This document shows positions 3,306 through 13,675 of a stretch of DNA of 22,679 nt, piece by piece (positions within the stretch are counted from its first letter, which is position 1; every line of letters starts with the position of its first letter). The notes beneath the pieces were generated by a model that was not told where the DNA came from, ran no database searches, and saw nothing but the letters and a program-made list of their open reading frames with translations. The stretch covers positions 1 through 22,679 of IMG/VR virus record IMGVR_UViG_3300029319_000556. One strand, 5' to 3'. The position numbers and the translations under genes were made by a program. This DNA is from a virus.

Positions 3306-3731
3306 TTATTTAGTTTTATCAAAAAAGAAAGGTCCATTTTCAGAACCCCATTTTTGTTCTCTAGTAACAGGATCAAACCCAGCATCAATTACTTGATAAA
3401 AATCAGGTCCCATTTGTATCTTACTTACTAAAACAGTGTTTTTAAAAATACAACCAGGAACAGTTTGACCATAATAGTGTCCATTATGTTTAATAAACAC
3501 TAAATTACATTGATCATTTTCTACAATGATTTGATTTTCAGATTCTTTTATTGTGATAATCTTATCACGATAAGGTTTCTCTTCATGTTTATATCTTTGT
3601 ACTACATGAAATTTATTCTCAGAAACTTTTTCGTGAGTTAAAAGGATATGTGCAAATCTAGTTGGACGACTAGATGCTTGTTTCCAATTATTAAAATCTC
3701 CTTCAAACCAATTTAAAAATTCTTTTAACAT
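3306..3731 (-). CDS. cpeT: CpeT/CpcT-like phycobiliprotein lyase
   Basis: CpeT/CpcT proteins attach bilin chromophores to phycobiliproteins of the cyanobacterial antenna. Cyanophage versions are about 140 residues, as here (141 aa). Family features are the N-terminal LKEFLNWFEGDFNNWKQA, the HI-LTHEKV and HVVQRYKHEEKPYR strands of the lipocalin-like barrel, and the end FDPVTREQKWGSENGPFFFD. Published work on a cyanophage CpeT found phycoerythrobilin binding without clear transfer, so lyase activity should not be assumed. The start overlaps the end of the GIY-YIG gene by seven bases. A candidate early promoter lies 48 bases upstream inside that gene. Confidence 0.88.
   Translation of the reverse strand: MLKEFLNWFEGDFNNWKQASSRPTRFAHILLTHEKVSENKFHVVQRYKHEEKPYRDKIITIKESENQIIVENDQCNLVFIKHNGHYYGQTVPGCIFKNTVLVSKIQMGPDFYQVIDAGFDPVTREQKWGSENGPFFFDKTK
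3307..3314 (-). promoter_or_regulatory. Variant late promoter before the tail-collar gene
   Basis: Minus strand ACTAAATA, 23 bases upstream of the GTG at 3283, two mismatches from TATAAATA. The same octamer at nearly the same distance precedes the 359-aa gene (14774-14781). Confidence 0.45.
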
Positions 3732-4153
3732 AAACCTTTGAAGTAATCTTTACGATAATATCTTCCTAGAATATTACCATTATAGTACAAAGGTGTACCA
3801 TCTGTCAATGCTTCTGATAGAACATTGTTTACGAAGAGTTGCCTAGTTTCTTCAAAATTACATTTCCCTACAGTAGTATGTAAACTAAGTATCTCTCTAG
3901 TAAATTTTTCTTTTCCTAATTTTTTTACGTCCTCTTTTAATTCTGGACACGAACCATAATAATTTTTCCAATCAGATTCTTTTCTTTGTTTTCTAGTTTG
4001 ACCTTTCTTTTTTCTAAAAGACCAAAAATATTTTCTTCCAATATATTTTCTTCCATTGCATGTATTTGTAATTAAATAAACAAACCCATGATATCCATTT
4101 ATTTTATCACAATCAAATATTTCTCCTTCATACCACCATGGATTCTCGTACAT
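3725..4153 (-). CDS. GIY-YIG nuclease-like protein (142 aa)
   Basis: Residues 22-45 read GFVYLITNTCNGRKYIGRKY, a GIY-YIG motif in the form FVY...YIG followed by the Arg expected on the first helix. A very basic stretch (FRKKKGQTRKQRKESDWKNY) and a conserved Glu in NFEETRQLFVNN follow; the Glu would be the metal ligand. It is shorter than many homing endonucleases and has no obvious separate DNA-binding domain. From memory, close relatives with the same MYENPW start and LGRYYRKDYF end are widespread in T4-like cyanophages, which suggests a resident gene rather than a recent invader. Possible roles are homing or DNA processing; neither is shown. Confidence 0.78.
   Translation of the reverse strand: MYENPWWYEGEIFDCDKINGYHGFVYLITNTCNGRKYIGRKYFWSFRKKKGQTRKQRKESDWKNYYGSCPELKEDVKKLGKEKFTREILSLHTTVGKCNFEETRQLFVNNVLSEALTDGTPLYYNGNILGRYYRKDYFKGLC
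3779..3808 (-). promoter_or_regulatory. Candidate sigma70-like promoter of cpeT
   Basis: Minus strand TTGACA, 18-base spacer, TATAAT: both hexamers perfect, spacer one base over ideal. It lies inside the 3' part of the GIY-YIG gene, 48 bases before the cpeT ATG. Confidence 0.45.
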
Positions 4154-4171: not shown

Positions 4172-4561
4172 TTATTTATTCAATTCCCCTTCATCCTCTT
4201 CCAATCGTTGTGCATCGCTTGGAGGTACCATGCCTGTGCTAGTTGTTTCGGACCCTCTTTCAACAATCGGATTTGAAATTTCGATAGACCACCCTTCATT
4301 TCCAAATACTCCTTTCTCCACGATAGTGGGTTCTTTTCTTGGTTCATTTTCTTCCCATTCCTTTATAATTTGATCTGTTTGTCTGTCAACATCTTTCATT
4401 GTGTTGTAAATTTTAGCATCAATCCATTTCTGTTTTAACCACTCAATGATACCTAAAGCAAGAAAAGAGATAGGGAAGCGTTGTTTCTTCGCCCATCTCT
4501 CTGCCTTAGCATACCAAGGGTCAGTTCCCTTGCCAAATTGTTTCTCGAATTCTATTTTCAT
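4172..4561 (-). CDS. Hypothetical protein (129 aa)
   Basis: I do not recognise this protein. It begins MKIEFEKQFGKGTDPWYAKA, has a basic, Trp-rich helix (ERWAKKQRF), a hydrophobic stretch at about 30-42 (PISFLALGIIEWL) that could touch the membrane, an amphipathic helix (DVDRQTDQIIKEWEENE), and an acidic low-complexity C-terminus ending EEDEGELNK. The ATG overlaps the PTOX stop (ATGA), so translation is probably coupled to PTOX. Confidence 0.75.
   Translation of the reverse strand: MKIEFEKQFGKGTDPWYAKAERWAKKQRFPISFLALGIIEWLKQKWIDAKIYNTMKDVDRQTDQIIKEWEENEPRKEPTIVEKGVFGNEGWSIEISNPIVERGSETTSTGMVPPSDAQRLEEDEGELNK
4173..4180 (-). promoter_or_regulatory. Late-promoter-like element before the GIY-YIG gene
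   Basis: Minus strand AATAAATA, one mismatch from TATAAATA, 20 bases before the ATG at 4153 and overlapping the end of the preceding gene. Spacing fits the other late elements; the sequence itself is weak in such AT-rich DNA. Confidence 0.35.
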
Positions 4562-5051
4562 GTGATCATTGTCATTGCATGTTGCAATTCTTTTGCATGG
4601 TTTAATTCGTCTTGTGCTATCTCTTGTATCTTTTTATCCTCTGGATGCCATGCAGAATACTTAACGTAGGTCTCATAAGCATGTGCTTCAATCTTCATGT
4701 TGATATCATAAGCGTTAGTAGGATCGAGAAGATAATACCCAACCATGATCCAATAATAAAGTAAAACAAGATGCTTGGCAAAGAACCTGTCGATCCAATA
4801 TTTATTGCCCTCCCTAAATTCCATCTCTTCCAAATGTTCTGTTTCATTTAATGCCTGATAAAAATGTTCCTTCATTAGATATATGTGATCTTCTCCTCGA
4901 AGTCCAAGAGATTCACGAAAATGTAACACACTGATAAATGAAAAGTAAGGTGCTCTAGCAATAACTTCTAATACCGAAAATCTCTACCTCTGTAAAGAAA
5001 GTCAAGGATGTAAATTGTGGTATTTAATACCCATGTGTTGAATTGTTTCAT
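4558..5051 (-). pseudogene. Plastoquinol terminal oxidase (PTOX), split by a one-base frameshift
   Basis: PTOX is a di-iron membrane-bound oxidase that passes electrons from plastoquinol to oxygen, relieving photosystem II. The gene starts at ATG 5051 (MKQFNTWVLNTTIYILDFLY RGRDF) but then hits a stop. One frame over, translation continues VLEVIARAPYFSFISVLHF and runs to 4558. The shift lies at a TTTT run (4977-4980): one more T would restore a 164-aa protein. In that restored protein the six iron ligands are all present: Glu29, Glu70 and His73 (ETEH), Glu122 (EAHAYETY), Glu149 and His152 (ELNH). The ORF that starts at GTG 4929 (123 aa) lacks Glu29 and cannot be the active enzyme alone. It could be a homopolymer sequencing error, a true mutation or slippage. 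The ATG overlaps the upstream TGA. Confidence 0.88.
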
Positions 5052-5170
5052 TGTAAGTACTCGACTATTTTAAGAATGCCATAAGCAGTAAAGACCTGTG
5101 GAACAATAAATGCCACCATCGCTACGACCCAAAACATATAGTAATAATTTTCTTTATTTTGTGTTCTCAT
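5048..5170 (-). CDS. 40-aa membrane microprotein upstream of PTOX
   Basis: Begins MRTQNKENYYYMFWVVAMVA and has one strong hydrophobic span at about 11-30 followed by a short polar tail (GILKIVEYLQ). Its ATG sits in a TAATG overlap with the 58-aa gene, and its TGA overlaps the PTOX ATG (ATGA). This double coupling ties its expression to PTOX, so a role beside PTOX in the membrane is a reasonable guess but nothing more. Confidence 0.65.
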   Translation of the reverse strand: MRTQNKENYYYMFWVVAMVAFIVPQVFTAYGILKIVEYLQ

Positions 5171-5346
5171 TAGTAAGAATGCTCCTCTACTTTTCCTTGT
5201 ATACATGCATCATCTATGCATTCTGTGTATGTTAGTTCTTCTTTAAAGTAAGAACGGTATATCTTATCCCAGATAAGATCGAATTCTTCTTGGTTTAAGT
5301 TTTTAAACAAACATTTGTCGTTTAAGTAGATGTGATAGTTTTTCAT
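5170..5346 (-). CDS. Small hypothetical protein (58 aa)
   Basis: ATG 5346 to TAA 5170. The product starts MKNYHIYLNDKCLFKNLNQE and ends in an acidic tail. Three Cys residues (12, 43 and 48; the last two in CIDDAC) are notable in so short a protein. It looks soluble and helical. The ATG overlaps the TGA of the upstream membrane protein, and the stop overlaps the next ATG. I recall similar small proteins in cyanophages without a known function. Confidence 0.7.
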   Translation of the reverse strand: MKNYHIYLNDKCLFKNLNQEEFDLIWDKIYRSYFKEELTYTECIDDACIQGKVEEHSY

Positions 5347-5636
5347 TTGTTATTAAGATATATTCCTTTTATTTGTGGTAAATAAATTAACATAAATGCT
5401 AACAACCAAAAACAAATAAAGACATATAAGTGAACACCTCTAAAGGGTGAAAATATAAACCCTAGAGTAACAAGAATCACCCATATATAATCAACCATAC
5501 CATGAAATGTTTGCCACCCCTTACCATATTTTTGTATAAGGTTATCTCTTTGTTTAGCAAACCATGGTGACACATGTCTCATCATAACGAAACCTTCATT
5601 AAGAACCATAATAAAAAATCCAATCCAAAAAATCAT
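5343..5636 (-). CDS. Three-span membrane protein of unknown function (97 aa)
   Basis: Begins MIFWIGFFIMVLNEGFVMMR. Hydrophobic spans lie at about 2-19, 49-66 and 69-90, with a basic loop between the first two (RHVSPWFAKQRDNLIQKYGKGW). It could be holin-like by size, but it sits between nrdB and the PTOX cluster, far from any visible lysis gene, so I do not call it one. The ATG overlaps the nrdB stop by four bases and its TGA overlaps the next ATG. Confidence 0.75.
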   Translation of the reverse strand: MIFWIGFFIMVLNEGFVMMRHVSPWFAKQRDNLIQKYGKGWQTFHGMVDYIWVILVTLGFIFSPFRGVHLYVFICFWLLAFMLIYLPQIKGIYLNNK

Positions 5637-6763
5637 AATTGAAATCCTGCAAATGTGTCTTTCTTGACATCTTGTTTAATGCCACCAACTTGATAACTCT
5701 CCACCTCAGTTTCCTGTGGTGCTACTTGCATACCTTTAGAAGACAACCAGTGTTGTGTCCATGGTAATGGATTGTTTCTCAATGGAATGTCGTAAATAGG
5801 ATCTAATCCTATCGCCTTCATTCTTTTGTTAGCAATCCATTCAACATATTGATGAAGTAGTTTATCATTAAGACCAATCATACTTCCATCTTTAAACAAA
5901 TATTCTGCCCATGCTTTTTCCTCATTGACACACCTCTCAAACATTTGTCTTACATAAGGTTTCTCTTCTTTAGCAATTTCTTTAAACTCAGGATCATCTC
6001 CTTCTTGCCATTTTTTGAGGATGTTTTGAGTAAGGACAAGATGCTGACTTTCGTCTCTGGCGATGAGAGAGATAATTTTAGCGGATCCTTCCATAAGTTT
6101 GAGTTCACCAAACGCAAACGAGCAAGCAAACGAGACATAGAATCTAATACCCTCCAGAATATTTACATTAGCAACTGCTCTATATAGTTTCTTTTTAAGA
6201 TCCCTTCTTTCCCACGCTCCTGTTGGACTGTCTCTCCAGTTTTCTCTCCACCAATTACTTGTGTCATATTCATGTGCTTGATTAATAAAAAAGTCATATG
6301 ATTCTGTTACTGATGATGCACGAGAAAGAATCTTTTCATCATCAAGAATAGTATCAAATACCTCAGCAGGGTCAGGATAAATGTTTTTAATAACGTAAGT
6401 ATAAGAACGACTATGAATCATTTCCATAAATCCCCATACTTCCATACATGCTTCTAGTTCAGGTAATGAGCAATAAGGGATAAATGCCATCCCAGGACCC
6501 CTCCCTTGTACAGAATCCAGCATGATCTGGTATTTAAGATTGCTGGTAAAAATGTGCTTTTGCTCAGGGCGTAATGTCTGATAGTCACTTCGATCTTTTT
6601 GTAAAGAAACTTCCTCAGGTCTCCAAAAATAACTGAGTTGTTGCTGTGTTAATTTGTCAAAAACTGGATACTTATAGGAATCATATCTTTGTACCCCTAA
6701 TGGTTTACCAAAAAACATAGGTTGTTTTTTAGTGTTCACTTTTTCCGTGTTAAAAACTGTCAT
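5633..6763 (-). CDS. nrdB: Ribonucleotide reductase class Ia, small (radical) subunit
   Basis: NrdB holds the di-iron tyrosyl radical that starts reduction of ribonucleotides to deoxyribonucleotides by NrdA. With start ATG 6763 the protein is 376 aa, the usual length. Iron ligands are Asp83, Glu114, His117, Glu204, Glu238 and His241, and the radical tyrosine is Tyr121, essentially E. coli numbering. The C-terminus (DVKKDTFAGFQL) is the tail that docks on NrdA. An upstream GTG at 6799 has a strong GGAGG at six bases and would add twelve residues overlapping the nrdA end. I preferred ATG because homologous sequence begins at TVFNTEKV; the GTG remains possible. It follows nrdA by 16 bases. Confidence 0.96.
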   Translation of the reverse strand: MTVFNTEKVNTKKQPMFFGKPLGVQRYDSYKYPVFDKLTQQQLSYFWRPEEVSLQKDRSDYQTLRPEQKHIFTSNLKYQIMLDSVQGRGPGMAFIPYCSLPELEACMEVWGFMEMIHSRSYTYVIKNIYPDPAEVFDTILDDEKILSRASSVTESYDFFINQAHEYDTSNWWRENWRDSPTGAWERRDLKKKLYRAVANVNILEGIRFYVSFACSFAFGELKLMEGSAKIISLIARDESQHLVLTQNILKKWQEGDDPEFKEIAKEEKPYVRQMFERCVNEEKAWAEYLFKDGSMIGLNDKLLHQYVEWIANKRMKAIGLDPIYDIPLRNNPLPWTQHWLSSKGMQVAPQETEVESYQVGGIKQDVKKDTFAGFQL

Positions 6764-6779
6764 ACCTTTTAATTCTTGT

Positions 6780-9080
6780 TCAGATTTTACAGGATTCACA
6801 GTCGTCCTCCTCTGTGTTGTCTAGTTCTGCGAGTATATTCTCTAGTGTTTGTTTTTTATCTTCTAACAAATCATCACCTTTTTGATCATAAGTATTTTGA
6901 TAATATGATGTCTTCCAACCATATTTGTATGTGGTTAAAAGATCTTGTGCCATAACAGAAACAGGAACTTCATTATCAGGATAGTTCTCTGGATTGTAAC
7001 TCCAGTTACCACTAATTGCCTGGTCAAAAAACTTTTGCATTACTGCTAGGATTTTAATATATCCTTGATTTGATTCCATGTCCCAGAGAAGAGTGTAGTT
7101 GTTTTTGAGATAAGTGTACTGGGGAACAACTTGCTTAAGTGGTCCTTTTTTACTTTTCTTAATGGACAGGTATCCTCTAGGAGGTTCGACTCCATTGGTT
7201 GCATTTGACACAACGGAACTGCTCTCCGAAGGCATTTGTGCGGACAAAGTGCTGTGCCTGAGTCCATGCTGTAGGATACTAGTCCTAAGAGTTTCCCAAT
7301 CATACGTTAAGTTGTTTGGTACAAGTTCATCTACGTCCTTTTTATAGGTATCAATCGGTAGTATTCCGTCTGAATATTTAGTGTGACTGAATGCTTCACA
7401 TGCACCCTTCTCTTTTGCAATTTCATTAGATGCTTTAAGCAAGTAATATTGGAATGATTCTGTTAAATCATGCACTGATTGCAATGCTTTTGGGTCACCG
7501 TATTTACATCCAATCTTTGCCAAATAATGAGCAAGACCAATAAAACCTACCCCAAGTGATCTACGTGCCTTTGTAGCACGTTCTGCTGCCCTTACAGGGT
7601 ATCCCTGATAGTCAATTAATTCTTCTAGTCCACGAACTGCAAGATCACATAGTTCTTCCATCTCATCTAAATGTTTAATTTTGCCTACATTAATTGCAGA
7701 TAGAATACAAAGAGCAATTTCACCACCTTCATCATCAATATGATTGATAGGGTCAGTAGGTAATGTAATCTCCTGACATAAGTTACTCATGTTAACTTTA
7801 TCTTTAAAAGATGAATGAGTATTACAATGGTCAATGTTCATCAAATAGATACGACCTGTCTCTGCTCTTTCTTTTAAAAGATTGAGGAATAGTTCTTGTG
7901 CTCCTATCCTAACCTTTGGGATAGATTCATCACTCTCGTAAGTGCAATATAGTTCGTCAAATAATTCAGTCCCAAAACTGTCATAAAGGTTAGGAACATC
8001 ATGAGGAGAAAAGAGTGTGATCTCTTTATTTTCAATAAATCTTTCATAAAATAATTTACTTAATTGAATACTGTAGTCAAGTTTACGAACACGGTTATCT
8101 TCTGTGCCCTTATTGTTTTTTAAGACAATTATGTCTTGGATTTCTTGGTGCCAGATTGGGAAGTGGACAGTCGCTGATCCACCTCTAATGCCATTTTGAG
8201 TGCAGCATCTGACAGTCGCTTCAAACTTTTTGAGGAACGGTACAACACCTGTGTGTTGAACTTCTCCACCCCTGATTTTAGCGTTGATCCCACGGATCCT
8301 GCCTGCGTTGATGCCGATACCAGCACGTTGTGCGACGTATTTACCAATAGCCATATCAGAACTAAAGATACTATCGAGGGTGTCATCAACATCAACGAGA
8401 ACACAAGATGCAAATTGACGAAGGGGTGTTCTGACGCCTCCCATGATCGGCGTTGGGATGTTGAGTTTATGTTTGGAAATGGCATTGTAATAATTTCTAA
8501 TGTAAGATAAACGATTATCTTTACTATAGTTAGCAAAAATTGTAATCGCAATCATTATGTACATGAACTGTGGTGTTTCATAAATTTCACCACTACTTCT
8601 ATCTTGAACTAGATACTTATCTACTACTTGACGAAGACCTGCATAGGTAAACAACAAGTCACGATCATGGTCAACCCATTCTCCGATAGTATTAAGTTCT
8701 TCTTCTGTGTAATTCTTGAGAACATCACCGTCATACACACCTAACTCTACACACTTTTTAATTTGATCAAGTAAAGTAGGATGATCCCAACGTCCACCAA
8801 TTAATTGTTTGCGAAGTCCAGATAAAAGAAGACGTGCAGCAACAAACTGATAGTTTGGATGATCTAAATCAATAAGATCAGAAGCAGACCTTACTAAAAT
8901 TTTTTGAATTTCATCTGTAGTAATTCCATCATAAAATTGAATACCTGATTGAATCTCTACCTGACTTGCAGAGACCCCTGAGAGACCCTTACAAGCGGAT
9001 TCAACCATCTTATGGAGTTTCTCTAGGTTAAGAGGTTCAATTGAACCATTTCTTTTCTTTACGTTCGTTCCGTTGCTCAT
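6780..9080 (-). CDS. nrdA: Ribonucleotide reductase class Ia, large (catalytic) subunit
   Basis: Catalyses ribonucleoside diphosphate reduction, giving dNTPs for phage DNA synthesis. The 766-aa protein has an N-terminal ATP-cone region (VKKRNGSIEPLNLEKLHKMV), the active-site Cys226 (RQFASCVL), the N433-x-C435-x-E437 triad (SNLCQE), Cys458 (ALCILSA), the SESSSVVSNATNGVEPPRG loop, the Tyr pair of the radical path (KTSYYQNT), and the C-terminal redox pair CESC that takes electrons from thioredoxin or glutaredoxin. The start ATG 9080 overlaps the primase TGA; a GTG four codons upstream is also in frame. nrdB follows directly. Confidence 0.97.
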   Translation of the reverse strand: MSNGTNVKKRNGSIEPLNLEKLHKMVESACKGLSGVSASQVEIQSGIQFYDGITTDEIQKILVRSASDLIDLDHPNYQFVAARLLLSGLRKQLIGGRWDHPTLLDQIKKCVELGVYDGDVLKNYTEEELNTIGEWVDHDRDLLFTYAGLRQVVDKYLVQDRSSGEIYETPQFMYIMIAITIFANYSKDNRLSYIRNYYNAISKHKLNIPTPIMGGVRTPLRQFASCVLVDVDDTLDSIFSSDMAIGKYVAQRAGIGINAGRIRGINAKIRGGEVQHTGVVPFLKKFEATVRCCTQNGIRGGSATVHFPIWHQEIQDIIVLKNNKGTEDNRVRKLDYSIQLSKLFYERFIENKEITLFSPHDVPNLYDSFGTELFDELYCTYESDESIPKVRIGAQELFLNLLKERAETGRIYLMNIDHCNTHSSFKDKVNMSNLCQEITLPTDPINHIDDEGGEIALCILSAINVGKIKHLDEMEELCDLAVRGLEELIDYQGYPVRAAERATKARRSLGVGFIGLAHYLAKIGCKYGDPKALQSVHDLTESFQYYLLKASNEIAKEKGACEAFSHTKYSDGILPIDTYKKDVDELVPNNLTYDWETLRTSILQHGLRHSTLSAQMPSESSSVVSNATNGVEPPRGYLSIKKSKKGPLKQVVPQYTYLKNNYTLLWDMESNQGYIKILAVMQKFFDQAISGNWSYNPENYPDNEVPVSVMAQDLLTTYKYGWKTSYYQNTYDQKGDDLLEDKKQTLENILAELDNTEEDDCESCKI

Positions 9081-12331: not shown

Positions 12332-13675
12332 TCAAAGGTATAATGCTTTTAACTCTTCAGCGTGTTCTCTTAATGCCTTGTTAACAGATTCAGTTACACC
12401 ATCTTGATACTTAACACGTTTAACCTTAGTTGCTTTCTTAGCAAGTGCTTTTTCAGAACCATCATCATCTTTATCTGATCCACATTCTTCTTTAACTGCT
12501 TTATTAGCACCTTTTAATTTCTTGTTCTTGTCAAACACTGACATAGGATCAGTTGCATCATCAATATCAGGATTAACAATTACACCTTTAACATCTTTTT
12601 CAATAAGTTCACTTCTCCAATCAGAGAATCCTTCTTTTTTAGTTCCTTTCTTTGATTTAATTGCTGCTGATACTGCTGCACGTCTCTTCATTAAATATGA
12701 ATCAGATGAATCCTTGTCACCATCGTTATCAACATCACCATCTTCCTTACCAACAGGATCAAGTTTCTTTTTCTCTTCTACATATTCTACTTCTTCTTTC
12801 TTAGCGGTCTTTGCTGAATCTTTAAATGCCTTGTCTGTAGGGGCACCCTTGTCACCTTTACTACGCATCTTCTCTCCTCTTTCTCTCTTAGCATGGATGT
12901 TAGCATAAAGACCTTTCTTTCCTTCTTCTAATTCTTCTTCATGTGGAATTGTATTTCCATCTTTATCTTTTTGATGATGTTCAGATACTGTTTCCTCATC
13001 TTCTTTAACACAATTAGGAACTTCTTTACCACCTTTCTTCTTAGTTCCTTGTGCTTTATAACCATCCCAGCACTTAGAAGCACCAACGTTAGCACGTGCT
13101 TGCTTCATACCTTCTGATAATTCTTCTCCAGAAACAATGCTTGCATATTCAACGGCAAGATCTTGCATTTTTTCTGTCCCAAAGGACTCAAGGATACCCT
13201 CAATAACATCTCCAGACAGAATAATTTTATCCATTTTGGATGCAATTTCCTGTTGTTCTGCCAAGGATAAACCCAGCATCCACGCAGATAATCTTACATT
13301 GGCACTCATCGTCTCTTCTTTAATCGGTTTAGTTTTATTTATACGTCTATTGACTTCAGTAGGTTTCTTCCACATGTCATAGTCATGTCCAGGAGTCATT
13401 CTTTCAGTAAATTTTCTGAATTTATTAGTTCCAACCAAACGATGTGTTTGATCAGCACCTGAAGTATTCCATTGTTTATATTCTTTAATATCATTAACCC
13501 ATGATCTAAACATATCACCTTCTTCAGTAACAGCAATTACATAGTTAGGTCCACGGCGATGGATTTTACCCACCTCACCGTTTGTATTTTGAACATAAGA
13601 ACCAACTTCATATAAGTTTCCATGTCTATATGAAGTATTTTTTGCTTGTTTATTAAAGTTACTAAATTCCATCAA
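12332..13675 (-). CDS. Modular probable structural protein (447 aa) with internal start
   Basis: A mosaic of short modules. Residues 17-95 hold the GNLYEVGSYVQNTNGEVGKI segment and RMTPGHDYDMW, seen elsewhere in cyanophage proteins. From Met123 (MSANVRLSAWMLGLSLAEQQ) a helical region follows, then CWDGYKAQGTKKKGGKEVPN (202-221), GLYANIHAKRERGEKM (255-270), an acidic DGDVDNDGDKDSSD loop (312-325) like Ca-binding EF-hand or dockerin loops, and YLMKRRAAVSAAI. The whole is highly charged, suiting a head scaffold or internal protein. An exact TATAAATA inside the gene lies 26 bases before the ATG of Met123, so a 325-aa late product (12332-13309) is likely as well. Function is inference. Confidence 0.8.
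   Translation of the reverse strand: MMEFSNFNKQAKNTSYRHGNLYEVGSYVQNTNGEVGKIHRRGPNYVIAVTEEGDMFRSWVNDIKEYKQWNTSGADQTHRLVGTNKFRKFTERMTPGHDYDMWKKPTEVNRRINKTKPIKEETMSANVRLSAWMLGLSLAEQQEIASKMDKIILSGDVIEGILESFGTEKMQDLAVEYASIVSGEELSEGMKQARANVGASKCWDGYKAQGTKKKGGKEVPNCVKEDEETVSEHHQKDKDGNTIPHEEELEEGKKGLYANIHAKRERGEKMRSKGDKGAPTDKAFKDSAKTAKKEEVEYVEEKKKLDPVGKEDGDVDNDGDKDSSDSYLMKRRAAVSAAIKSKKGTKKEGFSDWRSELIEKDVKGVIVNPDIDDATDPMSVFDKNKKLKGANKAVKEECGSDKDDDGSEKALAKKATKVKRVKYQDGVTESVNKALREHAEELKALYL
13336..13343 (-). promoter_or_regulatory. Internal T4-type late promoter
   Basis: Exact TATAAATA on the minus strand inside the 447-aa reading frame, 26-27 bases before an in-frame ATG (13309) that follows AAGAAGAG. 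Spacing equals that of other late promoters here. Confidence 0.65.

Follow-up and report, generated by a model that had tools for sequence, protein, structure and literature searches.

The plastoquinol terminal oxidase (PTOX) gene of a cyanophage contig, IMG/VR record IMGVR_UViG_3300029319_000556, appears from its sequence to be a broken copy and not a working member of its family, since translation would meet a stop after 27 codons where an uninterrupted frame of about 166 codons is expected. The favoured explanation, held at a probability of roughly two in three, is a recent and private 10-bp deletion that inactivated a dispensable auxiliary gene. The window, meaning the whole stretch of DNA that was analysed, is the entire record of 22,679 bases (35% G+C). 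This 22.7-kb contig carries a T4-like cyanophage gene set: psbA (truncated at the left end), hli genes, a tail-fibre-like gene, a CpeT-like gene, a SegE-like GIY-YIG gene, PTOX, nrdB, nrdA, primase, gp41, UvsX and DNA polymerase. The features around the break are given below, where L010 (IMG/VR contig 3300030118_005141) and L098 are relatives with an intact PTOX.

4172..4561, minus strand: conserved gene 3' of PTOX (T4-GC 410, PHROG 6464), its ATG overlapping the PTOX stop (ATGA)
4558..4983, minus strand: remainder of PTOX (3' part), read in the other frame and uninterrupted up to its stop at 4558-4560; it carries the six putative diiron ligands
4927..4929, minus strand: GTG, the first usual start codon of the downstream frame; a product from this GTG would be without the first iron ligand
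4957..4971, minus strand: 15-bp cluster on the right side of the break in which four synonymous sites differ from L010 and agree with intact L098
4966..4968, minus strand: first iron ligand codon, GAA (equivalent to E32 of the L010 PTOX)
4968..5051, minus strand: PTOX 5' fragment of 27 aa (MKQFNTWVLNTTIYILDFLYRGRDFRY), from ATG 5051 to a premature TAG at 4968-4970
4975..4976, minus strand: deletion point; alignments and the motif census place the ten missing bases of the relatives (QRFW codons) between 4976 and 4975
4977..4980, minus strand: TTTT run, with four T in the closest relatives too
5633..6799, minus strand: nrdB, intact, 5' of PTOX, in an order matching L010

A preliminary description of this DNA had reported a PTOX gene split at 4558-5051 on the minus strand, with the N-terminal frame starting at ATG 5051 and the rest of the enzyme in a different frame. 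The split is real and was rightly placed, as was the TTTT run at 4977-4980, and the downstream frame is indeed open from 4983 to the gene end at 4558-4560. Both halves are judged to reflect true homology rather than chance, because the downstream frame matches the Pfam AOX profile PF01786 (35.1 bits against a cut-off of 22.7, E=1.4e-8) and PHROG 4235, named 'plastoquinol terminal oxidase' (E=5e-76). The diiron ligands follow the order E, ExxH, E, ExxH, and all six (E, E, H, E, E, H) are kept in the downstream frame; they are putative, having been assigned from motif order and not from a metal-bound structure. The earlier statement that every ligand is preserved thus stands, with the count corrected from five to six. 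The RFW motif that precedes the first ligand is absent from the window PTOX.

This absence is explained by comparison with relatives. Directly after TTTTC (4980-4976), the window is without ten bases that are present in the aligned phage and IMG/VR relatives, and these ten bases cover the QRFW codons: the relatives read RDFQRFWVLEV, while the window with one T added reads RDF-S-VLEV. The join that had been called seamless on addition of one T restores the frame and not the motif, the relatives having TTTT and ten more bases. The T run consists of four T in the alignment of P-SSM4, P-RSM3, P-SSM3 and L010. The last of these is 98.5% identical to the window over 4,444 bp with the same gene order, encodes an intact PTOX of 167 aa, and differs from the window across those 4,444 bp by a single indel, the ten-base gap at 4976/4975. 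On these alignments, the event is best described as a 10-bp deletion at 4976/4975. The PTOX gene differs between the window and L010 by three amino-acid substitutions and five silent codon changes, which are too few to judge relaxed selection.

The lost motif is kept very widely. All 255 relatives with sequence at the site have RFW (175 phage or viral loci and 80 host genomes). The viral loci comprise 95 of the same phage type as the window and 80 of Syn9 type, the samples being the best-matching 80 loci per search and not a random draw. The motif is QRFW except in eight relatives that have PRFW, and the six ligands are invariant wherever they are covered. No split PTOX occurs among the 255. 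In the set of the window's phage type, PTOX is intact wherever no contig end truncates it, and contig ends account for the few incomplete copies. A comparison with related phages, which the preliminary description had proposed, reveals no shared split but intact relatives carrying ten extra bases. The window junction had no match in IMG/VR either as an exact 21-mer or as a pattern allowing synonymous change, in searches that may omit records of the window's own genome and hence near-identical sister records. Among the sequences sampled, the deletion is carried by one only. A different arrangement was seen in L022, where a second partial PTOX (the C-terminal third, positions 3-176) lies at the 5' end of the contig ahead of a complete copy; this is possibly a tandem duplication.

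The structural setting of the motif was examined on a model of the intact L010 PTOX (mean pLDDT 90.6, six helices), which in a fold search resembled the trypanosome alternative oxidase 3VVA with a TM-score of 0.84. A PDB sequence search with PTOX returned only chance matches for the single protein and none for the profile. In the model, QRFW (residues 26-29) falls within the first turn of a helix spanning residues 24-51, three residues before ligand E32, which the same helix carries.

The main rival of a recent deletion is an assembly chimera, in which an assembler or gap closer switched strains within a conserved stretch of mixed cyanophages and lost ten bases, the real PTOX being intact. The interest of this alternative, which is considered unlikely but carries appreciable weight, comes from the four variants at 4957-4971: they match a different lineage, that of L098, whose letters there are identical to those of the window, while both flanks are L010-like and the window agrees with L010 again beyond the cluster. 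When the 56 differences were placed at random 20,000 times, no placement put four of them into the 20 bp to the right of the break, while the chance of four falling within 15 bp of one another anywhere in the 4.4 kb is 3%; the location was picked out post hoc. The cluster could reflect either a short tract of natural recombination whose border is faulty or a change of strain during assembly. The conserved stretch around the site is common to many strains and the deletion was not found a second time, both of which would suit a chimera. Against it, no sequence common to the intact alleles at the break could account for an overlap-based join skipping exactly ten bases. Wherever comparison is possible, the remainder of the contig shows neither indels nor frameshifts, and natural recombination also produces short tracts in these phages. 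About 20 other window genes match proteins of Syn30, P-RSM4 and P-HM2, each in one frame, so the contig does not appear to be indel-prone; an indel-prone long-read contig would look otherwise. An indel-rich contig is ruled out by these single-frame genes together with the one indel in 4.4 kb against L010.

The remaining alternatives are all far less probable than a chimera. A one-base sequencing error in the TTTT run, with no real loss, would account for the restoration of the frame by one added base; it is refuted by the alignments, since intact relatives, including the 98.5%-identical L010, have the same four T and differ from the window by ten bases and not one, and next to no weight is left to it. 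Ribosomal slippage, also raised in the preliminary description, would need a -1 slip at T TTT with the rare codon CGG in the A site, giving some full-length PTOX with one Ser in place of QRFW. Once shifted by -1, tRNA-Phe can still pair with TTT, and the phage seldom uses CGG (2 of 132 Arg codons, counted over six genes). However, GATTTTCGG does not conform to X XXY YYZ and is no canonical slippery heptamer, folding of the downstream RNA does not exceed that of shuffled sequences (z=0.35), no relative is split or has such an arrangement, and the product would be without a motif that all relatives have where the first-ligand helix begins. Slippage is accordingly regarded as very improbable. It is tempting to speculate that slippage before the rare CGG makes a PTOX without QRFW and tunes the oxidase level to the supply of arginine tRNA during infection, but this is more doubtful still, and no paper joining cyanophage, PTOX and frameshift was found in the literature searched. 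Internal initiation in the downstream frame, yielding a shorter working oxidase, merits equally little credence. The frame is open over 141 codons and contains GTG 4929 and ATG 4875, but there is no ATG, GTG or TTG in it between the upstream stop and the first-ligand codon; initiation at a usual start thus cannot yield a protein with six ligands, and the product would be without an invariant ligand.

Of the three options offered in the preliminary description (sequencing or assembly error, very recent inactivation, slippage), recent inactivation is the best supported, although by way of a 10-bp deletion instead of a one-base shift. Under the favoured explanation of a recent private deletion, the phage lineage would earlier have had a normal PTOX, a plastoquinol oxidase of the diiron alternative-oxidase family, which in cyanophages is thought to route photosynthetic electrons to oxygen during infection. 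Ten bases would then have been lost at the start of helix 2, removing the invariant RFW of QRFW and shifting the frame, so that translation would end after 27 residues and no active enzyme would be made. We infer that the deletion exists in a real phage genome, and it is probably recent, given that the 3' part of PTOX is undecayed. It may have arisen at the margin of a short recombination tract, where replication slipped or a break was repaired wrongly. Alleles that encode the Phe of the motif by TTT (e.g., L091) have imperfect repeats, TTTTC and TTTTG, ten bases apart, and slipped replication is therefore a possible origin if a hypothetical ancestral allele resembled that of L091.

Such a loss would presumably be tolerated, PTOX being dispensable and the host having its own. 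PTOX was found in nine of 16 cyanomyoviruses, and P-HM1 has it while the co-isolate P-HM2 does not (PMC3037559). Prochlorococcus hosts have a PTOX of their own, and host PTOX transcripts go up in infected cells (PMC5082946). This sporadic occurrence in cyanomyoviruses, together with the host gene and its rise in expression, makes it likely that loss of the phage PTOX is tolerable. An effect on the neighbouring gene at 4172..4561 is also possible: its expression may drop, because the premature stop would leave about 400 bases untranslated before its overlapping ATG.

The location of PTOX varies between phage lineages. In the window (4558-6799) and in L010 it sits just 3' of nrdB, from which three small genes separate it; P-SSM4 has it between gp16 and gp17, and in Syn9 it adjoins plastocyanin and gnd. 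Two other genes of the window may be mentioned. About 400 bp 3' of PTOX, a SegE-like GIY-YIG endonuclease is encoded at 3725-4153 on the minus strand (PF19835, E=3e-51); its family is named 'NAD synthetase' in PHROG 447 and P-RSM4, a label that looks like a misannotation. At 12332-13675, also on the minus strand, a 447-aa protein has parts that match unrelated PHROGs, among them a C-terminal piece of a cyanophage cytidylyltransferase family, and is possibly a shuffled low-complexity fusion.

In itself, another cyanophage that has lost a photosynthesis gene of host origin, seen here at an early stage, is ordinary biology and of little weight. The main value lies in the corrected diagnosis: a frame that can be closed by one added base need not reflect a homopolymer error, and it was the comparison with relatives that altered the reading. 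If raw reads confirm the deletion, the window phage and its 98.5%-identical intact relative would provide a natural knock-out comparison for the contribution of phage PTOX.

Several known systems help to place the window gene. The alternative oxidase of Trypanosoma brucei (3VV9, 3VVA) is a mitochondrial ubiquinol oxidase with a fold like that of the intact PTOX, from which it differs in its greater length and by an identity of only 17%. The PTOX genes of the Prochlorococcus phages P-SSM4, P-RSM3 and P-SSM3 (T4-GC 404, PHROG 4235) are much closer, being 84-87% identical in nucleotides across 99% of the gene; they have the same T run, start and ligands as the window, but retain the ten bases and an intact frame of 166 aa, and the gp16-gp17 position in P-SSM4 contrasts with that downstream of nrdB in the window. 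L010 shares the gene order of the window from nrdA to the tail-fibre-like gene and differs in its intact PTOX. Degraded versions of a PTOX-bearing cassette (zwf, gnd, petE, PTOX), adjoining endonucleases, have been described in cyanomyoviruses (PMC3037559). These resemble the window in that auxiliary genes of this class are sporadically lost or decay, whereas the window has a single small deletion in a gene that is otherwise undecayed.
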